Under the pieces are notes generated by a model. The model had not been told where the DNA came from and ran no database searches. It saw only the letters and a list, made by a program, of their open reading frames with translations. From Nitrospira japonica (GTDB lineage: Bacteria > Nitrospirota > Thermodesulfovibrionia > Thermodesulfovibrionales > SM23-35), in assembly GCA_020725385.1 (NCBI GenBank), contig DYFC01000060.1, positions 1 through 64,000 on the forward strand: a stretch of 64,000 nt of DNA, given 5' to 3'. Below, one piece after another: positions 45,109 through 61,916 of this stretch; the first letter of the stretch is position 1, and every line of letters starts with the position of its first letter. The position numbers were made by a program, and so were the translations under genes.

Positions 45109-46302
45109 TTACTTTTTACGATTATTTATGACAATAATGAATATGATAAAAAACCCGGCAGATAAACTTGCTGTTATCGAGCCAAAATAAAAGGTTGCTG
45201 AGGGTGAAATCTTATCCCATAACCACCCCCCTATAAAACTTGCCGGAAACATGGCTAAACCGATTGCAGTATTATAAACTCCAAATGCTGTTGCCTTAAA
45301 ATCAGGCGGGATAATTGTTGCAAGAAAAGCTTTCTGTATTCCTTCTGTAAGTCCCATAAAAAGCCCGTAAAAACCGAATAATAACCATATGGTACTTGTG
45401 TCTTTAGCCACTGCAAAACCATAATAGAGCATAGCAAAGAGAATGAATCCGATTAGTATCACTCTTTTTCTTCCGAACCTGTCTGCTGCTATTCCTGCTG
45501 GAATTGCAGATAAAGAATATATGAGATTGAACATAAGATATACAACAGGAATCATGAGGGCTGAAATCCCTATTTGTTGGGCTCTGAGAATAAGGAATAC
45601 GTCACTTGAATTTCCCAAAGCAAACAAGGTTGCTATTGCCACAAAAAATTTAAACTTCCAGTCAAAATGTTTAAGAGTCAGTTTCGGCCTTTCTGAGGGC
45701 ATTTTAATAGCTTGCTTCTTTTCCTTGATAAATAAGATTATCAACAATACAGCTATTGCTCCGGGAATCATAGAGAGCCAGAATACCCATCTATAATTGT
45801 TTGAAAAAATACCCAGCAAAAAAAATGCAAGAGCTGGTCCAATTACAGCACCCATTGTATCCATCGAACGGTGAAAACCGAATGCTCTACCAAGATGTGT
45901 TTTTTCAGTTGACTCTGCAATAATAGCATCGCGTGGTGCCGTGCGTACCCCTTTGCCGAATCTGTCCATAAAACGAGAGCCCATTACATGGTGCCAACCT
46001 GTAGCAAGAGCAACAATAGGTCTGCTCAAAGTAGATATTCCGTATCCTGCAGCCATTAACCACTTCCGATTACCTATTCTGTCTGAAAACCATCCTGAAA
46101 ATACTTTCAATAAACTCGCGGTAGATTCTGCTATGCCTTCTATTAAACCTATAACAGATTTATTTACACCAAGCACATTAGCAAGAAATAATGGCACAAG
46201 TGGATATATCATCTCAGAACTGACATCCATAAAAAAACTGACGAGCCCTGCAATAAATACATTCTGTCCAAAACCAAAAAATTTTCTATTATCCTTTGTC
46301 AC
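45109..46302 (-). CDS. MFS transporter
   Basis: 397 residues, twelve helices. GLVSFFMDVSSEMIYPLVPLFL, GLIEGIAESTASLLKVFSGWFSDRIGNRKWL and the RDAIIAESTEKTHLGRAFGFHRSMDTMGAVIGP loop match a bacterial MFS group often found with stress or metal genes; substrate unknown. Starts with GTG after GGAAAGGA, 20 nt behind the ChrB-like gene, so probably in its operon. Related in its loop sequence to the MFS gene at 46.9 kb and to the remnant at 62.8 kb. Confidence 0.88.
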   Translation of the reverse strand: MTKDNRKFFGFGQNVFIAGLVSFFMDVSSEMIYPLVPLFLANVLGVNKSVIGLIEGIAESTASLLKVFSGWFSDRIGNRKWLMAAGYGISTLSRPIVALATGWHHVMGSRFMDRFGKGVRTAPRDAIIAESTEKTHLGRAFGFHRSMDTMGAVIGPALAFFLLGIFSNNYRWVFWLSMIPGAIAVLLIILFIKEKKQAIKMPSERPKLTLKHFDWKFKFFVAIATLFALGNSSDVFLILRAQQIGISALMIPVVYLMFNLIYSLSAIPAGIAADRFGRKRVILIGFILFAMLYYGFAVAKDTSTIWLLFGFYGLFMGLTEGIQKAFLATIIPPDFKATAFGVYNTAIGLAMFPASFIGGWLWDKISPSATFYFGSITASLSAGFFIIFIIVINNRKK

Positions 46303-46322: not shown

Positions 46323-46856
46323 CTATATATTTTTTTTCTGGCTCTTTTCATAAACCTTTTTTGAAAAATCATCAAACATCTTTTCACATTCTTTTATTTT
46401 CTCTATAGCCTGTTTTCTCAACGGAGCTTTTACTAAATCTCTTTTTTCAATTTTTTTCAACCAATGTTTTAACTTATCAAGTTCTTCTTCATTTTCTTCA
46501 ACCTCAGCGAAAATAAAATTCTTCCTTTCAATCTCAAACTTTATTTCTTTAAAAAAGTCTTCGCATTTTTCTATCACTTCCTGATATTCTTCATTTCTTG
46601 AGTCCATGAATACTTTAATGATTCTTTCTTCCTGTTTTTTATCTACTGCCTTACCTTCAACCAGCATCCCTTCACCCTTATATCCTTCGATTGTTTCGAC
46701 AAGTTTTTTTAGTTCATTTATATTTTCATTAGAATAAGGTATAACCCAGACTGTCTGATAATTTACAGCACCGAGCTTTTTTAATTGACGCCAGACGTAC
46801 ACCCTGGCTTTAGATGGCTCGGCCGGTAGACTATATGAAAAAAATAGCCATTTCAT
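46323..46856 (-). CDS. ChrB N-terminal-domain-like protein
   Basis: 177 residues beginning MKWLFFSYSLPAEPSKARVY, with RQLKKLGAVNYQTVWVIPY, the pattern of the ChrB N-terminal (PaaX-like) domain, followed by charged helices. The 366-aa track ORF starts at 47423, but its first half is a shadow of the MFS gene in another frame; the real ATG is 46856. Family members are linked to metal or oxyanion stress. The ATG lies inside the palindrome CATGTAACTATTGTTACATG, so self-control is plausible. Between two MFS genes. Confidence 0.8.
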   Translation of the reverse strand: MKWLFFSYSLPAEPSKARVYVWRQLKKLGAVNYQTVWVIPYSNENINELKKLVETIEGYKGEGMLVEGKAVDKKQEERIIKVFMDSRNEEYQEVIEKCEDFFKEIKFEIERKNFIFAEVEENEEELDKLKHWLKKIEKRDLVKAPLRKQAIEKIKECEKMFDDFSKKVYEKSQKKNI

Positions 46857-46892
46857 GTAACTATTGTTACATGAATATCTCTTCGAAGTCAA
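46854..46892 (-). promoter_or_regulatory. Promoter with operator palindrome of the ChrB-like gene
   Basis: Minus strand: TTGACT (46892-46887, overlapping the MFS stop), 17-nt spacer, TAACAA (46869-46864). The perfect 20-nt palindrome CATGTAAC-TATT-GTTACATG (46854-46873) covers the -10 box and the ATG. A 19-nt identical element with the same geometry is at 50.2 kb. Confidence 0.65.
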
Positions 46893-48100
46893 TGCAGTAT
46901 TGACCTGGTCTTTTTGACCATAAGGAGTAAGGGCACGGAGGCCAATTGAGCTGCTATAGAAAATGCGATCAGAAGTGGAATAGAAAAATCGTATAGGAAC
47001 CCTATCAATGCACTCCCCAGAAACCAAAACACACCATAACCTGTATTGAAGATGCCATAAGCAGAAGCACGCTTGTCGCGAGGTGCCATTCCAGCGACAG
47101 CTGCCCGCATGACTGATTCGTGGGCACCCATTCCTATGCCCCAAAGGGCCATGCCGGCAAGGCTCAGATAGAAGCCTCCCAGGAATACCAAAGGTGCAAA
47201 GAATGAGGATAATAGAACTGCTATAATAACTATCGGTATGCCTTTTCGATCGAAAATTCGACCGAATACCAGAGCAGCAATAGCTGCAGTTCCCATTGAG
47301 ACAGAGTAAAAAATAGGGATCCAGTTTCCGGGAACTACCAATGTCTTTTGAAAATGGTAGGCGATAACAGGAAAATCCGCATACCCTGCGGCAATTAAGG
47401 CCATTGCTGTAAGATAAATCCAATAGACTCTGGGCAGTCCTTTTGTCTCGACTTCCGGCTTGGTCGCCTCCAGGTCACGGGGATGTGGATAAAGGAAACG
47501 CGCAAAGATAAGAACACCTATTGTAAGGAGTGCTGGTATCAACAAAAATGCAAACCCCATCTGATAAGTCCCCTTGAAATAAAGCACAGCCGCAACTATC
47601 AGGGGACCAAGCATTGCACCGGTTGTGTCCATGGCTTCGTGCAATCCGAATCCCCAGCCCCTTCCTATTTCATGAGTGGCATGCGAGAGCATCGCGTCGC
47701 GAACCGGGTTACGTATTGCTTTTCCAGCCCTTTCTGCAATGATGAAAAAAGCTGCCACTTCCCAGCGGCCTGCCAGTGCCATGGCAGGCACAGCCAGCAT
47801 ATTGATTAAGTAGCCAATGATAGTAATAGTCCAGTATTTCGCAGTCTTGTCGGTGACATAACCGGAGACAAGACGAAGCGCATATCCGACTAACTCCCCA
47901 AACCCTGAAACTATTCCCACTATGGTGGCATTTGCTCCAAGGAAGGCGAGGAACGGGCCGTAAATGCTTCGTGCTCCTTCGTGTGTCATATCTGCAAAGA
48001 GGCTAACAATACCAAGCAAAACTATGAACAGCACGGTAGATCGCTTGGTTGTTACTATAGGATGTATTCTTTCGTCCGAAACAACGTTTTGTTTATCCAT
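46889..48100 (-). CDS. MFS transporter (second copy)
   Basis: 403 residues, twelve helices. LFADMTHEGARSIYGPFLAFLGANATIVGIVSGFGELVGYALRLVSG and PVRDAMLSHATHEIGRGWGFGLHEAMDTTGAMLGP share the loop pattern of the 45.1-kb MFS gene but with clearly higher G+C, so the gene was probably acquired separately. Substrate unknown. A ribosome site AAAAGGAG precedes the ATG. Upstream of the ChrB-like gene in one direction. Confidence 0.88.
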   Translation of the reverse strand: MDKQNVVSDERIHPIVTTKRSTVLFIVLLGIVSLFADMTHEGARSIYGPFLAFLGANATIVGIVSGFGELVGYALRLVSGYVTDKTAKYWTITIIGYLINMLAVPAMALAGRWEVAAFFIIAERAGKAIRNPVRDAMLSHATHEIGRGWGFGLHEAMDTTGAMLGPLIVAAVLYFKGTYQMGFAFLLIPALLTIGVLIFARFLYPHPRDLEATKPEVETKGLPRVYWIYLTAMALIAAGYADFPVIAYHFQKTLVVPGNWIPIFYSVSMGTAAIAALVFGRIFDRKGIPIVIIAVLLSSFFAPLVFLGGFYLSLAGMALWGIGMGAHESVMRAAVAGMAPRDKRASAYGIFNTGYGVFWFLGSALIGFLYDFSIPLLIAFSIAAQLASVPLLLMVKKTRSILH

Positions 48101-48248
48101 AATGCACTCCTTTTCATCAGCTTCTTAAAAATAATGTACATATAAAACACTCCACTGTATTACGTCGAACCCGGCTCTGACGGCGAGCCAACATAGCGAT
48201 CCGGATAACAGGGGAGAGTTGGGGCGATAATCTCATTGATGTTACATC

Positions 48249-49097
48249 CTATTTCACTACAAGCACAGGTTTTTCGCTGTATTCAACAACCCTTTGCGAG
48301 ACACTGCCCCAGAAAATAGCCTCTGTAAAACCTTTTCCATGAGAGCCCATTACAATCAATGAAACATCTTCTTCAGTGGCAATTTTGTTAATCTCAGCAT
48401 AAGGCTTGCCCTTGATAAGCTGCACCGATACCTTAAAACCTTGTGACTGGAACTCCTGCTCCAAGTTTGCTAATTTTTCTTTTATGCCAAGATCGAAATC
48501 TGTCTCCAGAACATGAACAACGATAATTTCAGAGGCTCCTACTTTATGAAGTGTAGGGATATATTGTTTAGCGCGCTCTGCACTCGAAGACCAATCAGTG
48601 GGATAGAGTATCTTTCTGAACATATTGGTACAATATTGTTCGGTGGTCTCACCTGCTGTTTCTTTTAGAACATGGTATTTTGCCACCAGAACAGGAACCG
48701 CTGATTTTCTTATAATGCGGTCTGTTGTGGAGCCGACAAAAAGTTCTCCAAGAATATCCCTCTTCTGCCTGCCTGCAACAATGAGGGATACATCTTCTTC
48801 ATTTGCTGCCTTCAATATTTCAGAAACCAGTGAGCCCTCGACAATTTTTGTCTTGACAGCAACACCTTCGGTTTCCAGATATTCCGCAAATCTATTAATT
48901 TCTTTCTGAGCTTTATCGCGGATTCGATCGAAATCAATCGGAAACCCTGAATCCCTTATTATAAAAAGAGCTTCTGTTTCTATAACATTCATAAGAATGA
49001 CCTCTTCCAGACCAGCTGCTTTCAAACACGTCAAATTTTTCAGTATCGGCAATGCAAATTCTTCAAATTTTGTTGGATAGAGAATTTTCTTAAACAT
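48249..49097 (-). CDS. Tandem universal stress protein
   Basis: 282 residues with two Usp domains, each starting FKKILYPT or FRKILYPTDWS. The second has the complete ATP-binding pattern GSHGKGFTEAIFWGSVSQ (G-2x-G-9x-GS); the first has GRQK in place of GxxG, so it may not bind ATP. Cytoplasmic stress protein. 24 nt after the PiT gene on the same strand, presumably cotranscribed with it. Confidence 0.92.
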   Translation of the reverse strand: MFKKILYPTKFEEFALPILKNLTCLKAAGLEEVILMNVIETEALFIIRDSGFPIDFDRIRDKAQKEINRFAEYLETEGVAVKTKIVEGSLVSEILKAANEEDVSLIVAGRQKRDILGELFVGSTTDRIIRKSAVPVLVAKYHVLKETAGETTEQYCTNMFRKILYPTDWSSSAERAKQYIPTLHKVGASEIIVVHVLETDFDLGIKEKLANLEQEFQSQGFKVSVQLIKGKPYAEINKIATEEDVSLIVMGSHGKGFTEAIFWGSVSQRVVEYSEKPVLVVK

Positions 49098-49121
49098 TTG
49101 TCTTCCTCCTCTTTGAAAATA

Positions 49122-50084
49122 TTATTTGACTCCCAGTAAAGGCGACAGCACTGAATATAAGACAAAAGCTACGACTGCTCCTATGAGGGGAGTTAGAAAC
49201 CACGATACAACGATCTCCTTTATAGTTTTCATGTTAATTGCATTAATGCCCCGCGATAATCCGGCGCCTGCTATTCCGCCTATCATTGCCTGATTCATAG
49301 AAGTAGGGTAGCCAAGAGAAGCAGCAATATGAGCAGTAATTCCCTGTGCCAACTGGGCACCAACAGCACTATTAATATCAAGTGAAACAATATGAAGGCC
49401 TACTTTTTCTAAAAGAGGGCGTCCCCATGTAAGAGCACCGATCGCCATGACAATGCCTCCGATAAAACCGGCCAGCATCTTTGACGGAATTGCACCTGTA
49501 CCAAAGAAGACACCTACTGCATTCCCTGTGTTGTTACAACCAAGAGTATAGGCAGCATAGCAGCATACGAGAAGGAGAAGGTATTTTTTAGCTTTATCAA
49601 ATTTCGTTAATGCTGATATATCCATAACCTTGGTCAGGATAAAACCAAGAATCGCCCCTACAATAGGTGTGCCTACCCATGTGATGGCCAGAGCAAGAAT
49701 AGTCGTTTCCCATTGGACTTGAGCTTTCATCCCTATTGCAGCGCCTACAACTGAAAAGATGGCCAACTGAGAGGTCGAAACCGGAAGTTTAAGCCAGGTA
49801 TTTGCAGCAGTCACAAGTGCTGCTGTGAGCATCATAATCATTGCCCCAAATATTGTCATATACTTTGCTTCAATAACTCCTGTACCGACTGTTTTGACAA
49901 CATTATGGCTTTCCAGAGTAGCACCCAGAAGTACAAAAATTGCGATCAGGATTGTTGCATTCCTTGGTTTGATAAGTTTCGCACCAAAAGCCGTTCCCAT
50001 TACCGCCCCTGTGTAATGTGATCCGATAGTCCATCCGAAAAAAAGCCCTGACAAAACCATGCCGATTAAATAAACCGTATCCAT
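49122..50084 (-). CDS. PiT-family inorganic phosphate permease
   Basis: 320 residues, about ten helices, low-affinity H+ or Na+-driven phosphate (or sulfate) uptake. GWTIGSHYTGAVMGTAFGAKLIKPRNATIL and CNNTGNAVGVFFGTGAIPSKMLAG are the duplicated family signature in slightly altered form. The track starts at 50102; GGGAGGTG followed by ATG 50084 (MDTVYLIG) is the better start. A 38-aa membrane ORF ends at the ribosome site. Confidence 0.88.
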   Translation of the reverse strand: MDTVYLIGMVLSGLFFGWTIGSHYTGAVMGTAFGAKLIKPRNATILIAIFVLLGATLESHNVVKTVGTGVIEAKYMTIFGAMIMMLTAALVTAANTWLKLPVSTSQLAIFSVVGAAIGMKAQVQWETTILALAITWVGTPIVGAILGFILTKVMDISALTKFDKAKKYLLLLVCCYAAYTLGCNNTGNAVGVFFGTGAIPSKMLAGFIGGIVMAIGALTWGRPLLEKVGLHIVSLDINSAVGAQLAQGITAHIAASLGYPTSMNQAMIGGIAGAGLSRGINAINMKTIKEIVVSWFLTPLIGAVVAFVLYSVLSPLLGVK

Positions 50085-50089
50085 TCTTT

Positions 50090-50206
50090 TCACCTCCCGC
50101 ATTTCTTTAGCTTCATTGATATGAAGCGAATTAAAATCAATCCAATATTCCAGCCTAATATAAATCCTGAAACAATAATTCCGATGAACAATATCATTTT
50201 TATCAT
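50090..50206 (-). CDS. Possible 38-aa membrane protein upstream of the PiT gene
   Basis: Not in the track. MIKMILFIGIIVSGFILGWN, then a second hydrophobic stretch and the basic end MKLKKCGR. The first ATG (50206) lies in the operator palindrome with the -10 ending 7 nt before it; the second (50197) is an alternative. Its stop overlaps the GGGAGGTGA ribosome site of the PiT gene, so the two would be translationally coupled. A regulatory leader peptide or small PiT partner are possible. Confidence 0.5.
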   Translation of the reverse strand: MIKMILFIGIIVSGFILGWNIGLILIRFISMKLKKCGR

Positions 50207-50242
50207 GTAACTATTGTTACATTTTATAATAATTTTTGTCAA
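50204..50242 (-). promoter_or_regulatory. Promoter with operator palindrome of the PiT operon
   Basis: Minus strand: TTGACA (50242-50237), 17-nt spacer, TAACAA (50219-50214). CATGTAACTATTGTTACAT (50204-50222) covers the -10 and the first ATG, identical over 19 nt to the site at the ChrB-like gene. A further half site, ATGTAACAT, lies upstream near 50260. Confidence 0.65.
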
Positions 50243-50419
50243 GCTTTAAAATAGTTATTTATGTTACATTAAAAATTATTTAGATTTTTACAAGCTCCTC
50301 TTATTTGGTTAATAAAAGAAATGGGAATTTTTTATAACAGGAAACTGGTTAAAATATTCGTTTTATTTTTTTCAACTTATTGATATATACTATTTAAACT
50401 TAAAAAGGAGAAAGAATAT

Positions 50420-50605: not shown

Positions 50606-50692
50606 ATGAAAAATCTTTTATGTGACTTTCCAATTAGTGATTCTATTAAATTTCATAGTATCCATTCAATAATAGGAGGCCATAGTGTTTAA
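50606..50692 (+). CDS. 28-aa leader ORF overlapping the mgtA start
   Basis: MKNLLCDFPISDSIKFHSIH, ending IGGHSV. AGAGGTG lies ahead of the ATG. Its TAA overlaps the GTG of mgtA (GTGTTTAA), so ribosomes finishing it are delivered to mgtA; mgtA also has its own AGGAGG site. Known mgtA genes in enterobacteria use a leader peptide (MgtL), though of different sequence. Confidence 0.55.
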   Translation: MKNLLCDFPISDSIKFHSIHSIIGGHSV

Positions 50693-53348
50693 ATTCTTGT
50701 ACAACTTATTCATTCCTTCATGGATACGTGATATGGCGAGTGCTCCCCATGCCCGTACAGATGATGAAAAACGACTTTTTGAAGTCTGCTCGGTTCCGGT
50801 AGAGAAAGCTTTACAGATTATGGACAGCAATATCCGGGGATTAAGCTCGAAAGAAGCTGAGAGACTTTTGGAAAAATATGGGCGCAATGAAATAACACAT
50901 ACCAGACGTCTTAATTTTTTTCAAGATATACTCCGACGTTTTAAAAGCCCTCTGGTAATTCAACTTATAATTATTGCAATCGTGTCTTTAGTAATTGGAG
51001 AGTTGAAATCAACGATTATTGTTTTCTCTATGATTCTGCTCAGTGTCGGGTTGTCTTATGCATTGGACAGGCGTTCAAATAATGCGGTTGAAGCCCTTGG
51101 CAAAAGGGTACAATCACGCTCAATTGTTCTTAGAGATGGCAAAGAGATAGAGTTGCCCTTGGCTGAACTAGTGCCCGGCGACATTATTCTTCTTCAAGCA
51201 GGTTCAATTATACCTGCAGATCTAAGAATAGTTTCAGCTAAAGATTTTTTTGTAAGTCAGGCAACACTTACAGGTGAATCAATTCCTGTCGAGAAAAATG
51301 CTGAAATTTCAGAAAATAGCGGAAAAGAATTATTTGAGTTAAGTAACGCTTGTTTCCAGGGTAGCAGTGTAAGCAGCGGTACAGCACGCGGGCTAGTTGT
51401 AAATACGGGTAGCCACACATATTTTGGTGCAATTGCTGAAAGGCTTTCTGCAACAGCAATCCAAACCAGTTTTGATCTCGGTGTTCGCTCATTCACATGG
51501 CTTATGATCAAATTCATGATAATAATGGTTTCTTTCTGTTTTGTGATTGTCGGGCTTACAAAGGGTAACTGGCTTGAAGCACTTCTGTTCGGGTTAGCTG
51601 TTGCTGTAGGGCTAACACCTGAAATGCTGCCGATGATAGTTACTGTGAATCTTGCAAAAGGTGCAATTTCTATGTCAAAGAAAAAAGTAATTGTCAAAAG
51701 ACTTTCTGCTATACAAAATTTTGGAGCAATTGACATACTCTGCATGGATAAGACCGGAACATTAACTCAGGATAAGGTTATCATGGAAAAACATGTAGAC
51801 GTTACAGGAGAAGACAGTGAAAATGTGCTCCGTTATGCATATCTAAACAGTTATTATCAGACAGGGCTAAGAAATCTGCTTGACAGGGCAGTGCTCGAAC
51901 ATAGGGAATTCGATGTTGAAGGTGCGTGCCGGCTGGTAGATGAACTACCATTTGATTTTCAGCGCAGGCGTATGTCTGTTGTAGTAGAATTTGAAGGAGA
52001 TCATGTCCTGATTTGCAAGGGTGCGGTAGAAGAGATTTATTCTTGCTGTAGTTACTACCAGTTGGATGATGAAATTTATCCTCTTATAGATATGATCAGA
52101 GATGATCTTTTTGATGAAGTTGCACGTTTGAACAATGAAGGATACCGAACCCTTGCTGTTGCTTACAGAGAGTTTCCACGCGAAAAGATACGTTTTTCTA
52201 CAAAAGATGAATCATCTTTAATACTTCTTGGTTATTTAGCTTTTCTCGATCCACCAAAGGATTCTTCTTCCAGAGCCATAAAACTTTTAAAGGAAAACGG
52301 GGTTGGGGTTAAAATTCTGACAGGTGATAATGCTCTTGTTACCGGTAAAATATGCCGCCAGGTTGGGTTTGAGGTCAATCACATTGTTACCGGAGAAGAA
52401 TTGGAACGTATGTCCCGGAAGGAATTTGAAAAGTCTGTTGCAGAAGCGAATGTAATGGTTAAACTATCACCATTACAAAAAGAAAGAGTAATAGAATCAT
52501 TACGCATAGATAGCAAGCATGTAGTAGGCTATATTGGTGATGGTATTAATGATGCACCGGCTTTGCGTGCTGCTGATGTGGGGATTTCTGTCGATTCTGC
52601 TGTTGATGTGGCAAAGGAATCCGCTGATATAGTACTTTTAGAAAAAAGCCTATTAGTCCTCGAAGATGGAATTATTGAAGGCAGAAAGGTTTTCTCTAAT
52701 ATTATAAAATATATCCGCATGGGAGCAAGTTCCAATTTCGGCAATATGTTTAGTGTGCTCGGAGCAAGTTATCTTCTTCCTTTTCTGCCAATGCAGCCTG
52801 TACAGATTCTTTTGAATAACCTGTTATATGATTTTTCACAAACAGGCATCCCTACTGATAATGTAGATGAGGAACAGATTGCAAAACCACGAAAATGGGA
52901 TATCGGAAACATAAAATGGTTTATGATCGTAATCGGACCGATAAGCTCAATTTTTGATTATGCAACATTTGCTTTAATGTGGTTTATTTTCAATACCCGG
53001 GCATTTCTTGAAGTAGCAACCGGTACAGCCGGACGGGAGATATATGCACAACTTTTTCAGACAGGGTGGTTTGTGGAATCTCTGCTTACACAAACACTAA
53101 TTGTTCATATTATTCGAACAAAACGCATTCCTTTTATTCAGAGCCGTGCTTCCATGACTATGACACTAACCACGCTTGCTGTTATGGCAATCGGGGCATG
53201 GTTGCCTTATTCTCCATTTGCATCAACATTCGGATTTGTGCCTCTACCGCTTAGCTATTGGGGTTGGATAGCCGTGTTTCTTTTTATGTATATTATTATT
53301 ACACATAAGATCAAAAAGTGGTTTTTCAAAAAATTTGGAGGTGAATAA
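50685..53348 (+). CDS. mgtA: Magnesium-translocating P-type ATPase
   Basis: 887 residues, P3B-type. Actuator LTGESIPVEKN, phosphorylation DKTGTLTQ, ATP site KGAVEEIYSCC, GDGINDAPALRAADVGISV, and the Mg-ATPase hallmark SYLLPFLPMQPVQILLNNLLYDFSQ with PTDNVD. Ten helices; imports Mg2+ when external supply is low. GTG start within the leader ORF's end, strong AGGAGG. The EIIA-like gene follows 3 nt after the stop. Confidence 0.95.
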   Translation: MFKFLYNLFIPSWIRDMASAPHARTDDEKRLFEVCSVPVEKALQIMDSNIRGLSSKEAERLLEKYGRNEITHTRRLNFFQDILRRFKSPLVIQLIIIAIVSLVIGELKSTIIVFSMILLSVGLSYALDRRSNNAVEALGKRVQSRSIVLRDGKEIELPLAELVPGDIILLQAGSIIPADLRIVSAKDFFVSQATLTGESIPVEKNAEISENSGKELFELSNACFQGSSVSSGTARGLVVNTGSHTYFGAIAERLSATAIQTSFDLGVRSFTWLMIKFMIIMVSFCFVIVGLTKGNWLEALLFGLAVAVGLTPEMLPMIVTVNLAKGAISMSKKKVIVKRLSAIQNFGAIDILCMDKTGTLTQDKVIMEKHVDVTGEDSENVLRYAYLNSYYQTGLRNLLDRAVLEHREFDVEGACRLVDELPFDFQRRRMSVVVEFEGDHVLICKGAVEEIYSCCSYYQLDDEIYPLIDMIRDDLFDEVARLNNEGYRTLAVAYREFPREKIRFSTKDESSLILLGYLAFLDPPKDSSSRAIKLLKENGVGVKILTGDNALVTGKICRQVGFEVNHIVTGEELERMSRKEFEKSVAEANVMVKLSPLQKERVIESLRIDSKHVVGYIGDGINDAPALRAADVGISVDSAVDVAKESADIVLLEKSLLVLEDGIIEGRKVFSNIIKYIRMGASSNFGNMFSVLGASYLLPFLPMQPVQILLNNLLYDFSQTGIPTDNVDEEQIAKPRKWDIGNIKWFMIVIGPISSIFDYATFALMWFIFNTRAFLEVATGTAGREIYAQLFQTGWFVESLLTQTLIVHIIRTKRIPFIQSRASMTMTLTTLAVMAIGAWLPYSPFASTFGFVPLPLSYWGWIAVFLFMYIIITHKIKKWFFKKFGGE

Positions 53349-53351
53349 ATT

Positions 53352-54149
53352 ATGCTGCATACAATTCTTCAGGCATTGGAAGATGGCCGGGTAATTGAGC
53401 TACCTGACAACGATAAAAAAGATGCTTTTGAAGTTTTAGCAAGCTTGCTGGAGGCCGTGCCATCTATTCCGGCTGGAACAGATATTGTTGGCGCGGTCCT
53501 GTCACGTGAGAGTATTTCTAACACTTCTCTGGGCAATGGATGGGCATGTCCCCATGCTCCTGTCCCATTTGATGGTGAGTTATTATGTGCTATAGGCTGG
53601 AGCCCGCAGGGAATAAAATATGGTAAACAGGACGAACCTCTTGTAAGGTTGATTATAATGTTTGTTGTCCCTGAAAATCAGAGAAGTCGTTATATTAAGG
53701 AAGTCTCAACTCTTGTTAAGGTAATTGAAAAACATCCTGAATGTAGAAATCTTGAAAATGTAGAGAATTTAAACGCTATACGTCTAAGATTGCTGGATAT
53801 GGCAAATTTTGCTATGGAAAATGGCGGACCGGATACCCGTGCTAAGATGATTGAATTGAAGACAAAGGCTGCTGTTATTCCAGCGATTGTACCAGAATTC
53901 GAAAACATGATAATTGAACCACTCATGATTATATCGGGACCCGGGATTGAACCTATTGTTCTAACACAGAACAAAGAATTATTTGATATTACTAAAGAAG
54001 ATAAAATACTTGCTACAGTTATTGCAGAAAAAAACTGGCATACTCTGAATGGATGGCGAATTGTGCGTAGGAGCAGTACAAATTATCAAGCGGATATAGT
54101 AGTTTATGATTGCTTTGCTATAAGGTCGGCCAGGAATAGTACAGTATGA
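53352..54149 (+). CDS. PTS EIIA (fructose/nitrogen type)-like protein
   Basis: 265 residues. Residues 1-150 match the PTS EIIA-2 fold: LASLLEAVPSIPAG, and the phospho-histidine site in NGWACPHAPVPFDGEL, as in EIIA-Ntr relatives. The C-terminal about 100 residues (FENMIIEPLMIISGPG onward) are not assigned. It probably modulates MgtA post-translationally; no PTS permease is near. Cotranslated with mgtA (3-nt gap). Confidence 0.82.
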   Translation: MLHTILQALEDGRVIELPDNDKKDAFEVLASLLEAVPSIPAGTDIVGAVLSRESISNTSLGNGWACPHAPVPFDGELLCAIGWSPQGIKYGKQDEPLVRLIIMFVVPENQRSRYIKEVSTLVKVIEKHPECRNLENVENLNAIRLRLLDMANFAMENGGPDTRAKMIELKTKAAVIPAIVPEFENMIIEPLMIISGPGIEPIVLTQNKELFDITKEDKILATVIAEKNWHTLNGWRIVRRSSTNYQADIVVYDCFAIRSARNSTV

Positions 54150-54269: not shown

Positions 54270-56420
54270 TTATCCGGCTACTGTCAGCACCAGCACAAGT
54301 GAAAGAACCAGGGTTAGAAGACCATAGCCAACATATGCATTGAGCCGTCCATGGTGCATAGCAGCTAACGCGTAAGCGATTTTTAAAGCACCTGACCGCA
54401 AAGGCGTAATGACTGAGCGATCAACGATATGAACTTCCTCCCTGCGCCGGCGAATAGCAGCGCGGAAATGGGCTTCAACAGTAGCCTGTGTATCTTGAGT
54501 GGTAGGTCGCAGGATAGTATCGAAAATCACCCTAACAGGGTTGGAGAATCCTGTAGCAGTGTAAGTCATTTCAGGGAGCAAGCGCCGGATGCCACCATCC
54601 CAGCGTTGGTTGCGTATCACGCAACGGTCTCGCGCCAAACCAAATCGTACCACAACGAATACAATTGCAAGAAGAATGATCAATACAGGAAACATATACG
54701 AGGTTGACATAGCGAAGACAACCGGATTGTGCTCGCCACCACGATGCATTACAACCAATCCTTGTCCCGGGAAAACCTCCTGTCCAACCTGTGCTCCAAG
54801 ATCACGGAACTCAGCTGCGAATTCAGGCTTTAGTTTTATATGATCCGGACTCGTAGCGAAAAAAGGCGGTGTAAGCGCTTCCACAGCACTCGCCTGTGTG
54901 ATCGGTTTGAGGACACCATCAAGCGCTGAAATTACAAATGTCGGTAACACACCGAGCAGGAGGCAGAACACCATTAACACTACCATTGGCGAGGTCATTG
55001 ATCGTGCGGCCTCGGTAGTTTTTTCTGCATGAGCCGAACGTGATATCCCAAGAAAGCCCATAGCAAAAGCTTTTACAAAACATGTAACTGCAAGAGCAGC
55101 AGTAAGTGCTAATATGGCGCCACAGAGTGCAAAAACCACTTTCACGCTTACTGATGAAAGTTCGGCGCTTCGCAGCATTGTTTGCAGTGTGAGCCATTCG
55201 CTCACAAAGCCATTAAAAGGCGGAAGGGCTGAAATAGAAAGAGCACCTGCAAGAAAACAAAGAGCGGTTAATGGCATACGACGGATTAATCCACCAAGTT
55301 GGTCAAGGTGACGGACACCCACCTTCATATCTACTGTAGCTGCGCTGAGAAACAGAAGGGCCTTGTAAAACGAGTGATTGGCCATATGATAGAAAGCAGC
55401 AACAAAAGCGATAGTCGCAATTAGAGTATGACCTGTTGCGGTAAACACAAAACCCGCGCCCAATCCTGCAGTGACTATACCTATGTTTTCTATAGAACTA
55501 TGGGCAAGCATCACCTTCAGGTCGTTTTTTGTCGTCGCGTAAAGAATACCGACAAAGGCAGAGACTGTGCCGATAATCAATGTAATCAAACCGGGACCAG
55601 TCATTGTCATTGGCAATATATCCATATTAATACGCACAATGCCGTAAAGCCCCAGATTCAAAATGACGCTGGAGAGCAGCGCTGAAATATTGCCTGGCGC
55701 AACAGGATGTGCGCGCGGCAGCCATGCATTAAAAGGTGCCAGTCCTGCTTTTACTCCAAACCCGAAAAAAGAAAGCAGAAAAATAGCCCATTGTAATCCT
55801 TCCGACATACCCCGGGATGTACTTTTGAGAGCAGGGAAAGACAAACTATCTGCAGGAATAGCGAGTAGAAGCAGCGCAATGGCAGCGGCCAATGTTCCGG
55901 CCTCGCCCATTGCCAGCATCAAGTAGCCAGCTGCTGTATGCTCTTCATCCCTGTGCTCAAAATTAACGAGAAGATAGCTCAGGATAGACATCGCTTCCCA
56001 TGCAAGCAAAAACATCAACACATCACTTGCGAACAGGATTAAACCAATCGATAAAAAAAGTGACAGATACCAAATATTGAAAACTTTCAAACTGTAATGG
56101 CCCAGATAGTGTTTCAAATAACCAGAGGAAAAGACGGAGACCGGCAAAAAAATCAGAGCAGTGACAACAAGAAAAAGAGCTGAAAGCTTGTCCAATGAAA
56201 GTTCTAACGTTCCCAGCACAGGTATAGTCCAAAGCGAAAACCGGAATGTGTCTCCCCCAAGCAGAACCGTCCCGGCGCTCAAGAGAAGTGCAAGCGCAGC
56301 AACTGACCCGAACCATGCAAGCACATTAGGACACCATCGCTCCGGGATAAGAATAGTCGTTACGACTCCAGTGACTAACAGCCAAAAAAAGATTTGAAAC
56401 AAAATATCCGAGCTTATCAT
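54270..56420 (-). CDS. HyfB/NuoL-like antiporter subunit of the Ehr complex
   Basis: 716 residues, about sixteen helices. Proton-antiporter core: LAWEAMSILSYLLVNFEHRDEEHTAAGYLML, GFGVKAGLAPFNAWLPRAHPVAPGNISALLSS, VMLAHSSIENIGIVTAGLG and FYHMANHSFYKALLFLSAAT, with the membrane Glu/Lys/His residues of MrpD/NuoL proteins. It is the ion-pumping subunit most distal to the cofactor site. Last gene of the operon; ATGA overlap with the small subunit. Higher G+C than the flagellar region. Confidence 0.9.
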   Translation of the reverse strand: MISSDILFQIFFWLLVTGVVTTILIPERWCPNVLAWFGSVAALALLLSAGTVLLGGDTFRFSLWTIPVLGTLELSLDKLSALFLVVTALIFLPVSVFSSGYLKHYLGHYSLKVFNIWYLSLFLSIGLILFASDVLMFLLAWEAMSILSYLLVNFEHRDEEHTAAGYLMLAMGEAGTLAAAIALLLLAIPADSLSFPALKSTSRGMSEGLQWAIFLLSFFGFGVKAGLAPFNAWLPRAHPVAPGNISALLSSVILNLGLYGIVRINMDILPMTMTGPGLITLIIGTVSAFVGILYATTKNDLKVMLAHSSIENIGIVTAGLGAGFVFTATGHTLIATIAFVAAFYHMANHSFYKALLFLSAATVDMKVGVRHLDQLGGLIRRMPLTALCFLAGALSISALPPFNGFVSEWLTLQTMLRSAELSSVSVKVVFALCGAILALTAALAVTCFVKAFAMGFLGISRSAHAEKTTEAARSMTSPMVVLMVFCLLLGVLPTFVISALDGVLKPITQASAVEALTPPFFATSPDHIKLKPEFAAEFRDLGAQVGQEVFPGQGLVVMHRGGEHNPVVFAMSTSYMFPVLIILLAIVFVVVRFGLARDRCVIRNQRWDGGIRRLLPEMTYTATGFSNPVRVIFDTILRPTTQDTQATVEAHFRAAIRRRREEVHIVDRSVITPLRSGALKIAYALAAMHHGRLNAYVGYGLLTLVLSLVLVLTVAG

Positions 56421-57190
56421 TGTTTTTTTACCTCTTCATGCTTTAGGCTCACGGACTGTGTAATCAGTGATGCCGGAGGTTTGAGTCCAGCAACTACGAG
56501 TAGCGCGTGCAAGATAGCAAGAGGAGGAGGAGGTTGACCGGGAACTTCAACATCAACCGGAAGAAACTCGCTTATATTTTCATCACATACGAAACTCGGG
56601 CTGAAGACACCTCCTGATAGCGCACATGCTCCCACGGCTATTACCCACTTTGGCATTGGTATTGCGTCATATACTTTCCGGAGCGGTTCCCGCATGTGGT
56701 CAGTAAGTGGCCCAACTATAAGTAATACATCAGCTTCCCGTGGGGTCGGTGTGATGAAGAAGCCCAGGCGATGCATATTATAATAAGGATTGTTCAACTG
56801 ACGAACTTCATTCAGACATGCACCACAATCACCGGTGTCAACAACAATAATGTTAAGAGACCGATCAAAAGCCCGAACAAATTTTTTCCTTGTTTCTATG
56901 ATATTTGTGTCTGTAGCCCATTCATAACCTTGCTGCCAAGCTATGGGCAATGTTACACCACGAATGCATCTGTAACAGTGCACACAGCGGCGGTAATCAA
57001 CCACAAGCTTGTGATTTTGAAAGCTGAGTGCACCAACCGTACAGCGTTTGACAAGCTCACTGGCTTGTTTTTCTGGATAATCCCCGCCAAGTGGCAAGCC
57101 TGGAGATACTCCTGGTGCTGTTTCCTCTCGGCCTGGATAACAAGTTGTTTTGATACCGGTTGCCAATCCTTTTCTAACCCACTGGCTCAT
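56417..57190 (-). CDS. HycG/NuoB-like small subunit fused to a one-cluster ferredoxin domain
   Basis: 257 residues. N-terminal ferredoxin-like part with Cys50 and CVHCYRC (69/72/75) for one 4Fe-4S cluster. C-terminal NuoB/HycG domain: DCGAC (122/125), Cys189 in GACALSGGVF, but the fourth ligand is Gln219 in VPGQPPPP where VPGCPP is expected. The proximal cluster is therefore altered or bound otherwise (Cys202 is nearby). Sits between the large subunit and the HyfB-like gene. Confidence 0.88.
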   Translation of the reverse strand: MSQWVRKGLATGIKTTCYPGREETAPGVSPGLPLGGDYPEKQASELVKRCTVGALSFQNHKLVVDYRRCVHCYRCIRGVTLPIAWQQGYEWATDTNIIETRKKFVRAFDRSLNIIVVDTGDCGACLNEVRQLNNPYYNMHRLGFFITPTPREADVLLIVGPLTDHMREPLRKVYDAIPMPKWVIAVGACALSGGVFSPSFVCDENISEFLPVDVEVPGQPPPPLAILHALLVVAGLKPPASLITQSVSLKHEEVKKQ

Positions 57191-57214
57191 ATCTCTTTTC
57201 TCCCATTTATCGTT

Positions 57215-58792
57215 TTATCGATCGTTTTCAGCTACCGAAAGATCGAATGTTGCCAGAATAATCGGGAAATCCTGAAAAGCGAAATTTTCCGCAGCCACGT
57301 GAAAACCATGCCAATTTACAAACGAAGGTGTAATGAGGCGGTACCGGGAAACACGCCCATCTTCTCCTATGCGTAACCAATGAAAAGCCGCACCACGTGG
57401 TGCCTCGACCCATCCCAGTGCTGAACCGGGTTTGATTCGTACCTCAGAAAAAACCGGACCTCCCGGCAACGAAGCTGTTGCCTGCTCCATAATTTTTACC
57501 GACTGCCGTGCTTCTTCAAACAGGACACGCAGCCGGGCATAACCGTCGCCTTCCTGCTCACATGGCACCTCAAAAGTATATGCTTCGTAACCCGAGTATG
57601 GTTGAACTTTACGCAAGTCACGTGTAATTCCTGATGCACGGGCAACAGGCCCTACAAGGCCGTGTTTCATAGCCTCCAGTTGATTTACAATTCCGACTTC
57701 TTCCAGCCGGTCGAGAAAGCTACTGGAAACTCGCAGCATTTCTTCCAGTCTGTCAAAGCGCTTAAGAATAGCCTTTGCCTGTTGAACTGCCTCGTGGCAG
57801 ACTGAATCGTCAAACTCCTTGTTTAATCCTCCAGGAACTGCCAGGCCAAAGAGATATCGGTGTCCTGTAAACCAACCTGAAAGCCGCAGCAATTCCTCCT
57901 CCATTATTGCGGCCTGACTGGTGGCTACAGCCAGAGCGGTTGACTCGCAGATTTCCTGTACAGCGCCTACATGATGACGTAGTCGCTCCAGTTCTGCTAA
58001 AAGAACGCGGAGAACTTGTGCCCGCTCAGGAACTTTTATACCACAAATATTTTCGATCGACTGGACAAATGCAAGCGAATGGGCAAAAGCTGTAGTTGCT
58101 GCAAAACGTTCGGCCAGCAGCAAAGTGCTTTCAGTTGTAAGCCTCTCAGCAATTTTTTCGATAGCTCGATATTTATAAAATAGGCGGGGTATTGTACGTA
58201 TCACATCTTCACCAACGGTTTCCAGCAAGAAATGCACTGGTTCAGTTACACCGGAAAATTTCGGCCCAATCGTCATGCCAAAAGCCCCGGGTGCTTTTAC
58301 AATGAGATTGGGCTTCCACTCGAGATCAGGCATTCGATGCTCTACTGATTTTTTTCCATCAAAGCTATGGAGCATCGGTCTTAGTTTTTCCTGCCACCTC
58401 TCATTGTGAAGCACAAAATCTCCGAGACGTGGATGACCGGCAAAATATAGTCCAAAGAGGTCTTCTGCTTCACGTTCATGCCAGTCAGCAGCATGTAAGA
58501 AACCGCTAATGCTGGGAAAAGCGGGATCAGATAGCGGCTGGTGTGTTAGAATGTATATCCAACCCGGCTCGTGGTCGCTATAAAATACATAGCGTAGCTC
58601 CCAGTCCGAAGAACCTTCCTCAACTATCAGACCGGCGAAGACGTAATGCATTTCTAAACTCAACCATTTACAAACATCTGGAATATCCTCTAACTCACAT
58701 TCCATTTCACATAATGAATGACTGAGATCAAGGCGGGGCTTAATGTCCGGCCAATGTCTGATAGCAATTTCCTGAATGTTATCTAATGTCAT
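57215..58792 (-). CDS. HycE-like large subunit lacking the NiFe ligands
   Basis: 525 residues: NuoC-like first 170 (HAADWHEREAEDLFGLYFAGHPR), then NuoD/HycE domain. The N-terminal NiFe motif RxCGxC reads ERFAATTAFAHS and the C-terminal DPCxxC reads FDLSVAENDR, so all four cysteines are absent while the surrounding fold (NICGIKVPERAQVLRVLLAE) is kept. The protein cannot bind NiFe as hydrogenases do. This defines the energy-converting hydrogenase-related (Ehr) type. The track start TTG 58810 is replaced by ATG 58792 after GAGAGGTG. Confidence 0.92.
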   Translation of the reverse strand: MTLDNIQEIAIRHWPDIKPRLDLSHSLCEMECELEDIPDVCKWLSLEMHYVFAGLIVEEGSSDWELRYVFYSDHEPGWIYILTHQPLSDPAFPSISGFLHAADWHEREAEDLFGLYFAGHPRLGDFVLHNERWQEKLRPMLHSFDGKKSVEHRMPDLEWKPNLIVKAPGAFGMTIGPKFSGVTEPVHFLLETVGEDVIRTIPRLFYKYRAIEKIAERLTTESTLLLAERFAATTAFAHSLAFVQSIENICGIKVPERAQVLRVLLAELERLRHHVGAVQEICESTALAVATSQAAIMEEELLRLSGWFTGHRYLFGLAVPGGLNKEFDDSVCHEAVQQAKAILKRFDRLEEMLRVSSSFLDRLEEVGIVNQLEAMKHGLVGPVARASGITRDLRKVQPYSGYEAYTFEVPCEQEGDGYARLRVLFEEARQSVKIMEQATASLPGGPVFSEVRIKPGSALGWVEAPRGAAFHWLRIGEDGRVSRYRLITPSFVNWHGFHVAAENFAFQDFPIILATFDLSVAENDR

Positions 58793-58799
58793 GTGCTGT

Positions 58800-60242
58800 T
58801 CACCTCTCAAGGGCAGATGCTCCGAGGCGCAATAACTGATGAAGGGGTTCAGGAAGATAAAAGCCTAACCAGATCACAAGCAAAGCTGTTACGAGGAGCA
58901 CCACCAAACAACTTGCCGGCAAGCGTACCTTTAGCTTTGCATCGCTATTGCTTCCACCAAAAACCATTTGGTTAATGTGCTGTAAAATTCCAAAGAACCC
59001 GATTGCTATAAATAAAACCAGCAGCGCCATTTCTATAAAACGGCCTTCAGACAGACCTGCTCTGAAGATAGAAAACTCGCTCAGGAATACTACAAAAGGC
59101 GGAGCACCGGCGATAGCCAGTCCACCCAGGAGCAGGCTCGCACCGGCAACAGGCGATGTGCGAATGAGACCGCGTACCAGGGAGATTTCGCGAGTGCCGA
59201 CTGCCAGGAGTGCTGCGCCTGCAGCGAAAAAACAAAATGATTTGGTAAGCGTATGGCTAAAAGCTTGATATAAAGCTCCATAGTGTGCAGAAGAAGTGCC
59301 AAGGCCTGCAGCCAGCAGAATAATACCCATGTGTTCCACTGTGGAAAATGCAAACATCCTTTTGTAATCGCTAACTTGTAGCAAAAGAAATGCAGCAGCT
59401 CCAACCGATAGCAGACCGAAGACGATCGCATACACCTCTGCATGAGTTCCAGGAGCAGCCTTGAGAACCGGGAAAAGTCGCAGAATCACATAGAGCACAG
59501 CAGTAGTCTCAACACCGGACAACAAGGCACAGACTGGCGACGGCGCCTGACTGTGAGCATCGGGTAGCCAGGTATGCATCGGTACGAGCCCGGCTTTTGT
59601 ACCAAGTCCTACCAGAATCATTACGAACGCTACCTCTAACAGGACAGCAGGCATTCGCGGCGCAGCAGCAACGAGACCATCCCATGTATAAGTGCCACCG
59701 CCTGCAGCCTGCATTGTGGCGAAAAGCATCAAAAAACCAAGCAAACCCACAGCAGCGCCCATAAGTGAGAGCACAACATATTTCCATGCTGCTTCAAGTG
59801 CTTCGTGTGTATTTTCAAAGCACACCAAAAGGGCTGAGCATAGTGTTGTCAATTCCACAACGATCCAGACCAGAGTCGGTTCTACCAGAACAGGGATGGC
59901 AAGCATCGAAAAGATGAAGAGATTGAAATTCGCGTAATAAAGGCGCAGACGTCCGGGTTTATGAGAATTCATCGACATGTAGCCTAACGAAAAGAAAGCT
60001 GCCATTGCTCCGACAAAGGCGATCATGAGAAGCATAAGCACACTTAACCCGTCTACCGCAATCCATTTCGGGAACACTGATATAGGCTGGCCTGTGCTCA
60101 CAACCTGTTCGGCGAGTTGCAGACTTATAAAAAATATTGCTGAGGACGAAGCGACGGTAACAACTGATGCAAGCCGTGGCAAAGGCAGGAAGGACAGGGC
60201 TGCAGCTGCTAAAGGTAGAATAAGAAGAATAATTACATTCAT
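58800..60242 (-). CDS. HyfF/NuoN-like antiporter subunit of the Ehr complex
   Basis: 480 residues, about fourteen helices. WIVVELTTLCSALLVCFENTHEALEAAWKYVVL, GLGTKAGLVPMHTWLPDAHSQAPSPVCALLSGV and AFSTVEHMGIILLAAG match the HyfF/HyfD antiporter branch. Second ion-channel subunit. ATGA overlap with the HyfE-like gene; its stop forms part of the next gene's ribosome site. Confidence 0.9.
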   Translation of the reverse strand: MNVIILLILPLAAAALSFLPLPRLASVVTVASSSAIFFISLQLAEQVVSTGQPISVFPKWIAVDGLSVLMLLMIAFVGAMAAFFSLGYMSMNSHKPGRLRLYYANFNLFIFSMLAIPVLVEPTLVWIVVELTTLCSALLVCFENTHEALEAAWKYVVLSLMGAAVGLLGFLMLFATMQAAGGGTYTWDGLVAAAPRMPAVLLEVAFVMILVGLGTKAGLVPMHTWLPDAHSQAPSPVCALLSGVETTAVLYVILRLFPVLKAAPGTHAEVYAIVFGLLSVGAAAFLLLQVSDYKRMFAFSTVEHMGIILLAAGLGTSSAHYGALYQAFSHTLTKSFCFFAAGAALLAVGTREISLVRGLIRTSPVAGASLLLGGLAIAGAPPFVVFLSEFSIFRAGLSEGRFIEMALLVLFIAIGFFGILQHINQMVFGGSNSDAKLKVRLPASCLVVLLVTALLVIWLGFYLPEPLHQLLRLGASALER

Positions 60243-60958
60243 TGACCTGTCTCCTCCAGCGCTTCATCGGTTGTACGTTCTTTAAGCCTTGCCATTGCAC
60301 CAACTTCGGTAGTGCCGATATGCTGATGGACTGCACGGATAAGGACGCCTGTAATAAAAACGATGATTAGGCCGTCTGTGGCAATAGCAAGTTCCACAAG
60401 GAGTGGCAATGTACGGGCTAGACTTATACCCGCAAAAAAAGCGCCGTTTTCCATCGCCAATAAGCCGATAAGTAGAGGCACCGCTTCACGCCGTACTGCG
60501 AGCGTATAAGCTCCCAGAAAAAGCACAGCAAATCCGATTGGAATATTCGGCCCGCGAAATTCAACCGCTATTGCTTGCTGCAACGGGATAGTAAGAAAAT
60601 AGGCTATGATTACAAGCGCCAGCGAAATAAGAAGTGATGAAGGGATATTCAATACCTGGTCGATCTCGCGGCGGGTATAGACTTCTTCATGCACTGTTTT
60701 CCGTAGAACCCAGGGAATTAAAATTGCTTTTGCGACCACATTCACAAGAGCAACGCCATAAAGATGCAAAGAGGAGTGCCGAAGTCCAAGCAGGAAAGCG
60801 GATACTGCCAGCAGCAATGATTGTGTGATAAAAAGTGTTAGTGTCCCCTTTGCCTGACGTGTAGCGACAATGCCGAAAGCAGTGAGTAGAAATAGACCAC
60901 CTGCGAGCATATTCAGTGAATCCAGAATTGAAACTGCTATTAAATTATCATTTATCAT
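60239..60958 (-). CDS. HyfE-like membrane subunit
   Basis: 239 residues, about seven helices. TLTLFITQSLLLAVSAFLLG, RREIDQVLNIPSSLLISLAL and RREAVPLLIGLLAMENGAFFAGISLA match HyfE, with the NuoK-like glutamate region in LAMENGAFF. Links the antiporter subunits. Begins 7 nt after the HyfC-like stop. Confidence 0.88.
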   Translation of the reverse strand: MINDNLIAVSILDSLNMLAGGLFLLTAFGIVATRQAKGTLTLFITQSLLLAVSAFLLGLRHSSLHLYGVALVNVVAKAILIPWVLRKTVHEEVYTRREIDQVLNIPSSLLISLALVIIAYFLTIPLQQAIAVEFRGPNIPIGFAVLFLGAYTLAVRREAVPLLIGLLAMENGAFFAGISLARTLPLLVELAIATDGLIIVFITGVLIRAVHQHIGTTEVGAMARLKERTTDEALEETGQ

Positions 60959-60965
60959 GGTTTCA

Positions 60966-61916
60966 TCAAAGAGAAAATAACCTCATAAGCATTGCTGCCA
61001 CCGATGTAACGAAGGCGCTACCCAGAAATTCGGTAATGCGAAACAAACGAAGTTTGGCCAGCGATGATTCGATGATAACGAGCACCAGAATAAAAATAAA
61101 TATTTTGAAAAGGACAAGTGGAACAGCTAATAGCACATTACCAAACGTCTGTTTGTAGGCAAGCCCCCATGGTGTGACGAGAACGTTGAGAAAAATACAT
61201 AGCAGCACAAACAACTTCATATAACCACCCCATTTTATCAGGGCTGCACCTTTGCCCGAGTATTCCAGCATTTTAGACTCGTCGATCATAGCTAATTCAA
61301 AGTGTCCGGAAGGATTGTCAACCGGAATACGCCCGGTCTCTGCGAGGATTAGCATGAAGAAAGCAGCCATCAGGAGCACATGTGATGGTTCCAGAAAATT
61401 TGATGGTGGCGACATCCAGCGTTTTTGTACAATATAGGGGATGGTAGAATCAGCAACAAAAGCAACCGTGAAGAATACAATAATAAACACAGGTTCTGCC
61501 AGGAAACCAACCATACGTGTCCGGCTTGCACCCATAGGGCCATAAGGGTTAGCAGTGTCAACTGCAGCTAGTGTTTTAAAAAATCCACCGAGTGCCAGCA
61601 CAAAGCCGCCACCCACCATATCAGCCATAAACGCAAAAAAGAGTGGATAATCTGTGAGAACCGGGATGAGTAGTGTGACAAAAATAGGAGTGATAAATGC
61701 AATATACGGTGTAGCACGGAAAATCCAGGAACTTTCCTCAGAGATTACCTCATCTTTTTGGAAGAATTTCCACAGATCGCGATAAGGCTGGAAAATACTG
61801 GGACCACGCTTTGATTGTACAATTTCCTTTAGGCGATTTATCACGCCTGCAACAAGCGGCGAGAAAACAAGTACTACCAGTACTTGTAAGAGGTTGAAAA
61901 AAATGCGCTCAATCAC
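60966..61916 (-). CDS. HyfC/NuoH-like membrane subunit
   Basis: 316 residues, eight helices. VINRLKEIVQSKRGPSIFQPYRDLWKFFQKDEVI and FMLILAETGRIPVDNPSGHFELAMIDE are diagnostic of the NuoH/HyfC anchor at the membrane interface. Starts with GTG inside the TGA of the preceding short frame (GTGA). First full gene of the operon behind the fluoride riboswitch. Confidence 0.92.
   Translation of the reverse strand: MIERIFFNLLQVLVVLVFSPLVAGVINRLKEIVQSKRGPSIFQPYRDLWKFFQKDEVISEESSWIFRATPYIAFITPIFVTLLIPVLTDYPLFFAFMADMVGGGFVLALGGFFKTLAAVDTANPYGPMGASRTRMVGFLAEPVFIIVFFTVAFVADSTIPYIVQKRWMSPPSNFLEPSHVLLMAAFFMLILAETGRIPVDNPSGHFELAMIDESKMLEYSGKGAALIKWGGYMKLFVLLCIFLNVLVTPWGLAYKQTFGNVLLAVPLVLFKIFIFILVLVIIESSLAKLRLFRITEFLGSAFVTSVAAMLMRLFSL

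Follow-up and report, generated by a model that had tools for sequence, protein, structure and literature searches.

A 19-nt palindrome at two promoters as the probable operator of a ChrB_N-only protein

We examined a 64-kb window (the whole stretch of DNA that was analysed) in which a 19-nt palindrome, CATGTAACTATTGTTACAT, occurs in exactly two copies. Both are, with high probability, operators of the ChrB_N-only protein encoded in the same gene cluster (Table 1). In the mechanism that we propose, a dimer of this protein, predicted to be Cas2-like, would bind TGTAAC-N4-GTTACA across the -10 element and the start site, and the bound dimer would block RNA polymerase at two promoters. The first would be its own, so that the chrB-MFS transcript would be autoregulated and probably leaderless, and the second would be that of the operon just upstream, which encodes a small ORF, a CysP-like permease, a universal stress protein (Usp), and an MFS transporter. 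ChrB is used in chromate biosensors, and its operator has so far only been guessed. Comparison across loci now specifies such an operator base by base, in two promoter layouts and several phyla, and a poorly understood family gains a testable binding code.

Two copies of the palindrome and their promoters

The 19-mer is present at both of the positions given for it in the earlier note, and none of 100 shuffles reached 4 hits. The same note had suggested a genome-wide scan for ATGTAAC-N4-GTTACAT; in our pattern searches of the 2.46-Mb genome, TGTAAC-N4-GTTACA (TGTAACNNNNGTTACA) had two exact matches, both in the window, and no scattered repeat was found, while the number of chance copies of the 19-mer expected in 2.46 Mb is ∼5e-5. 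Sites with one mismatch numbered seven in the genome (reversed control, three) and all fell within open frames that are 99 codons or longer; we excluded them as regulon members because of this location and because their number was close to that of the control. Two identical copies near each other could also represent a small repeat or a mobile palindrome without a regulatory role, but the lack of further genomic copies, the exact promoter spacing, and the conservation across phyla leave that reading almost no probability, and a repeat element was ruled out by the genome scan, which returned two copies only.

Both palindromes are oriented toward minus-strand genes. The order on that strand is operator 2, a 38-aa ORF, the PiT-family permease, Usp, and an MFS transporter, followed by operator 1, the ChrB_N protein, and another MFS transporter. 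Each copy overlaps the -10 element of a TTGAC(A/T) promoter. The spacing proposed earlier, TTGAC(A/T)-N17-TAACAA with the -10 inside the palindrome, is present at both sites (TTGACT before chrB and TTGACA before the permease operon), with the refinement that AACAAT makes a better -10 (4/6 to TATAAT; spacer, 18) than TAACAA (3/6). An ATG had also been described at the far end of each palindrome. It is found at both sites, and comparison with relatives indicates that it is a conserved start, predicted to be leaderless, for chrB only and not for the permease. In eight relatives (loci L010, L011, L012, L016, L020, L021, L034, and L036), just as in the window, the last bases of the palindrome are the ATG of chrB (offset, -15). 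The chrB mRNA is predicted to be leaderless because no Shine-Dalgarno (SD) sequence precedes this ATG and the start site is expected at about its A. At the permease site the ATG is not conserved: the palindrome of a close relative (G243) has the end TTACAATAAAATG, and other relatives have the permease, with its own GGAGG, directly after the operator.

Table 1. Coordinates of the operators, promoter elements, and neighboring genes in the window
Feature	Position	Strand	Remark
MFS transporter 1	45109..46302	-	Pfam MFS_1; downstream of chrB; order kept in L010, L011, L012, L021
ChrB_N-only protein, 177 aa, proposed repressor	46323..46856	-	Pfam ChrB_N 1e-39; predicted leaderless start
Operator 1 (putative), core TGTAACAATAGTTACA at 46871-46856	46854..46872	-	Overlaps -10 and ATG of the ChrB-like gene
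-35 TTGACT, chrB promoter	46887..46892	-	Falls where the upstream MFS gene stops; from sequence
MFS transporter 2	46889..48100	-	Conserved cluster member
Tandem universal stress protein	48249..49097	-	
PiT-family permease, CysP-like	49122..50084	-	GSHYTGA and GCNNTGNA replacing GANDVANA
38-aa ORF, single hydrophobic segment	50090..50206	-	Resembles permease N terminus; stop overlaps permease SD
Operator 2 (putative), core TGTAACAATAGTTACA at 50221-50206	50204..50222	-	Overlaps -10 of permease operon; position kept in relatives
-35 TTGACA, permease operon	50237..50242	-	From sequence
Degenerate second operator (putative), TGTAACATAAATAACT	50253..50268	-	47 bp upstream of operator 2

Conservation of the site with ChrB_N genes

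Scanning one genome per species with the ChrB-like protein yielded 35 loci, most of them in MAGs, that belong to Nitrospirota, Desulfobacterota, and Bacillota. In the 431 kb around these ChrB_N loci, 41 sites had no more than one mismatch, and the reversed motif gave none. Upstream of chrB, at least 11 of 12 matches were found for 12 of the 35 N-only genes (shuffle mean, 0.02) and 12 of 27 full-length genes (shuffle mean, 0.00); all of these counts overstate independence because many loci are close Nitrospirota relatives and some contigs are in both genome collections. The sites of relatives precede the permease operon, chrB, or another transporter gene heading the chrB cluster, and the operator is found before chrB even in clusters without the permease. 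About 10 of the 35 N-only loci had no site at up to one mismatch, several of them on truncated contigs. In Thermodesulfovibrio, internal chrB genes have no nearby site, and the operator stands at the head of the operon instead.

The exact 18-mer occurs in 20 of 295 Nitrospirota genomes, and 19 of these 20 carry ChrB_N, compared with 66 of the 295 overall (Fisher P = 8e-13); the remaining one of the 20, G250, has no ChrB_N. Because the strict 18-mer was found in 0 of 297 Desulfobacterota genomes, its background is near zero. The Desulfobacterota ChrB_N genomes that were sampled have looser sites, none with the strict 18-mer. In eleven genomes other than that of the window, the site count is 0 to 3 each. 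By sequence comparison, the site and a ChrB_N gene travel together in Nitrospirota, Desulfobacterota, and Bacillota and also with canonical chrB, including that of some proteobacterial plasmids. This co-occurrence across phyla strongly backs the suggestion of the earlier note that a single repressor, perhaps the ChrB-like protein itself, serves both promoters.

A different regulator, of the CRP/FNR or PadR type, might bind the palindrome instead, with ChrB merely one of its targets. The 16-bp two-fold site with a 6-bp center (TGTAA-N6-TTACA) is similar in size to CRP sites, and the ends of the 18-mer, ATGT...ACAT, resemble those of PadR sites. We consider such a regulator quite improbable. Global regulators have many sites, but here there are two in the genome, both in this cluster; the site accompanies ChrB_N genes from phylum to phylum, also where the neighboring genes are unrelated; and we saw no further DNA-binding gene or family common to the clusters. 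Further, the spacing here is ATGT-N10-ACAT, whereas that of PadR sites is usually given as N8. A PadR-type regulator, left as an option earlier, is not required, since the TGTAA-N6-TTACA geometry is common to canonical chrB promoters.

Around sites attributed here to ChrB_N proteins, two promoter layouts were found. In the N-only regulon, the distance from the start of TTGACA to TGTAAC is mostly 20 to 22 nt, which places the operator over the -10; for full-length chrB this distance is 11 nt (13 cases), which places the operator in the promoter spacer, filling it. Operators are also paired, with 12 pairs 44 to 46 bp apart (nine at exactly 45) that flank the -35. The permease promoters of relatives often have a second, intact operator 45 bp upstream (44 to 46 bp), such as TGTAACAGAGATTACA in G243, 45 bp away. 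Degeneracy of the corresponding site in this genome (Table 1) explains why it was overlooked earlier. In many relatives, this second operator probably makes binding cooperative. In Bacillota loci, two palindromes 16 to 33 bp apart lie upstream of chrB, and full-length chrB genes (∼330 aa) have the same palindrome, often doubled, 17 to 18 bp apart. In one locus (L081), the full-length chrB is followed by a frame read as ChrA-like.

Several loci have other neighbors. In L014, L015, L019, and L023, the operator lies before a gene of the Na/Ca-exchanger family at the head of the chrB cluster. A dynamin-like GTPase is divergent in L015, and similar frames are present in L017 and L019. A Peptococcaceae MAG (L042) has two operators at its ChrB_N gene and a gene for a cation P-type ATPase immediately downstream.

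The ChrB_N-only protein and canonical ChrB

The 177-aa protein matched ChrB_N (PF20229) with 136.5 bits (cut-off, 23) and ends after this domain, without a match to ChrB_C (PF09828). Because ChrB_C is absent, we filed it as a ChrB_N-only relative and not as a chromate-sensing ChrB. An NCBIfam search gave no named family for it, and a sequence search gave no solved structure. Its AlphaFold2 model (pLDDT, 93) consists of a beta-alpha-beta ferredoxin-like domain (residues 1 to 70) and three long helices; it begins with the Cas2-like domain, with no N-terminal winged helix ahead. Foldseek returned PaaX as the top match, followed by Cas2 proteins, with weak E-values (0.009 and above). For the Cas2-like central domain of PaaX (PF20803), the window protein scored below the threshold (E = 0.004) and the protein of L044 above the cut-off, and the PaaX winged helix (PF07848) had no match in the protein or the genome. 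PaaX (PDB 8a39) and the PaaX-like Rv0674 (3kfw) resemble the predicted fold of the window protein, with a Cas2-like domain and then a helical domain, and residues 87 to 236 of Rv0674, i.e., without its N-terminal part, align over residues 1 to 174 of the model. In contrast to the window protein, PaaX has a winged helix at its N terminus, and its ligand and operator are different. If ChrB_N alone binds, DNA would be read without a helix-turn-helix, via a fold that also occurs in CRISPR Cas2 and PaaX.

Two arginines, R18 and R23, are located in helix 1 of the model and are invariant, with the same numbers, in 33 N-only proteins as well as in the full-length sequences aligned with ChrB of Ochrobactrum tritici. 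The O. tritici protein binds and represses its own promoter, and its R18A and R23A variants are constitutive (PMC3817168). Helix 1, with R18 and R23, is a likely DNA contact. TnOtChr ChrB and the window protein are alike in having ChrB_N with both arginines at identical positions, and the O. tritici site lies on or near the -10 and the start codon (PMC3817168), as at the window chrB. They differ in that TnOtChr ChrB has a ChrB_C domain with the chromate-sensing residues R180, R187, and H229 and controls ChrA, whereas the window protein lacks ChrB_C and its gene sits with a CysP-like permease in a genome from which ChrA is absent.

The repeat published for O. tritici, GTAGAT...ATCTAC, is wider than the window palindrome and different from it, and a mutated copy still bound ChrB (PMC3817168). 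In a TnOtChr-like chrB copy we found TGTAGTAACATCTACG (TGTAG-N6-CTACG, at -18), which falls inside the region shown to be bound by O. tritici ChrB (PMC3817168). We propose that this sequence, narrower than the published repeat, is an alternative O. tritici site that would fit the family. Plasmid-annotated chrB genes have TGTAACTAGATCTACA (L105) and TGTAGAGGTCTCTACA (L106) upstream of the start, and the chrB of pTTS12 (L108) has TGTTGAGTTTTCTACATG, again with an offset of -15. Of 16 plasmid chrB genes, only 6 matched the degenerate consensus, and the genes on alphaproteobacterial plasmids have a drifted motif that lies outside it. Among open-licence papers, we found none naming this operator or a link among ChrB, PaaX, and Cas2; searches with the motif letters gave unrelated matches only, and the literature searched held no wet-lab work on the N-only branch.

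The permease and the candidate signal

The target of operator 2 had been taken for a PiT transporter. The family assignment held, while a phosphate-type carrier is less likely, given its CysP-like changes from Asp to Tyr and Asn. Operator-linked PiT homologues have GSHYTGA and NNTG or NNSG, where the motif is covered, compared with GANDVANA in phosphate carriers, and a second PiT paralogue in the same genome retains both Asp residues. Substitution of the Asp is a criterion for calling CysP-type sulfate permeases, and Tyr at the N-motif position is reported for a Thermodesulfovibrio protein grouped with Bacillus subtilis CysP (PMC5840216). The window permease shares with B. subtilis CysP and THEYE_A1808 of T. 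yellowstonii the PiT fold with the conserved Asp replaced; its N motif has Tyr, as does that of THEYE_A1808, and its C motif has Asn. In contrast to CysP, its substrate is predicted only, and its CysP-type identity is a prediction because the NCBIfam CysP model matched with 132 bits, below its cut-off of 400. We expect a sulfate rather than a phosphate permease.

The genome also has dsrA. Genomes with N-only ChrB have dsrA in 10 of 12 cases (P = 0.008); because the taxonomic order concerned commonly has dsrA, we did not treat this association as proof. The Asp changes of the permease, the presence of dsrA, and the absence of ChrA favor sulfate uptake over phosphate as the theme and make chromate efflux unlikely in this genome. 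Since it has no ChrB_C, the ChrB_N-only protein probably does not sense chromate; plausible signals are sulfate or a metabolite of sulfur. An acidic run, FAEVEENEEEL (residues 116 to 126), is invariant in the N-only branch and absent from full-length ChrB, and our guess is that it is the sensing element.

The same operator and repressor could instead control a regulon for divalent cations or phosphate, in which FAEVEENEEEL would bind metal. The restriction of the invariant Glu cluster to the N-only branch, the Na/Ca-exchanger-like genes and the P-type ATPase in the loci named above, and, by position, the MgtA gene that is divergent in the window would all suit such a regulon, but the commonest target is a PiT homologue without both of the Asp residues that are essential for phosphate, and we regard this alternative as rather unlikely. 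With sulfate as the preferred theme, a wider reading can be put forward tentatively, as a serious possibility: a Cas2-like repressor class without a helix-turn-helix, in which the ChrB_N-only branch would serve sulfate uptake and the other branch chromate efflux, with one TGTAR-N6-YTACA code. The sulfate-uptake branch would be that of dissimilatory sulfur bacteria, and the invariant acidic motif would replace the chromate domain. If true, the N-only branch would be a candidate sulfate-uptake regulator in sulfate-reducing lineages, and the handling of chromate and that of sulfate would be linked within a single family.

The 38-aa ORF ahead of the permease is identical to the permease N terminus at 8 of 21 positions (E = 2e-4) and has a homologue in a second genus (G243, L132), METMLIIGIIVSGFVVGWNLG...; it may have arisen by duplication of the 5' end and been retained either as a small membrane peptide or for coupling. 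Divergent from the permease operon, an MgtA-type Mg-translocating P-type ATPase (1,097 bits) and a PTS EIIA-like protein are encoded at 50685-54149 (+). An RNA leader element near the permease and MgtA was dropped, as no riboswitch or other RNA element there matched Rfam. Beyond these, six genes at 54270-61916 (-) are mostly complex-I or membrane-bound hydrogenase-like (Proton_antipo_M twice, Oxidored_q6, 30/49 kDa, and NADHdh), and ordinary genes in the window include those for a ribonucleotide reductase large subunit at 17721-19460 (+) and an FlhA-type FHIPEP protein at 26774-28807 (+).
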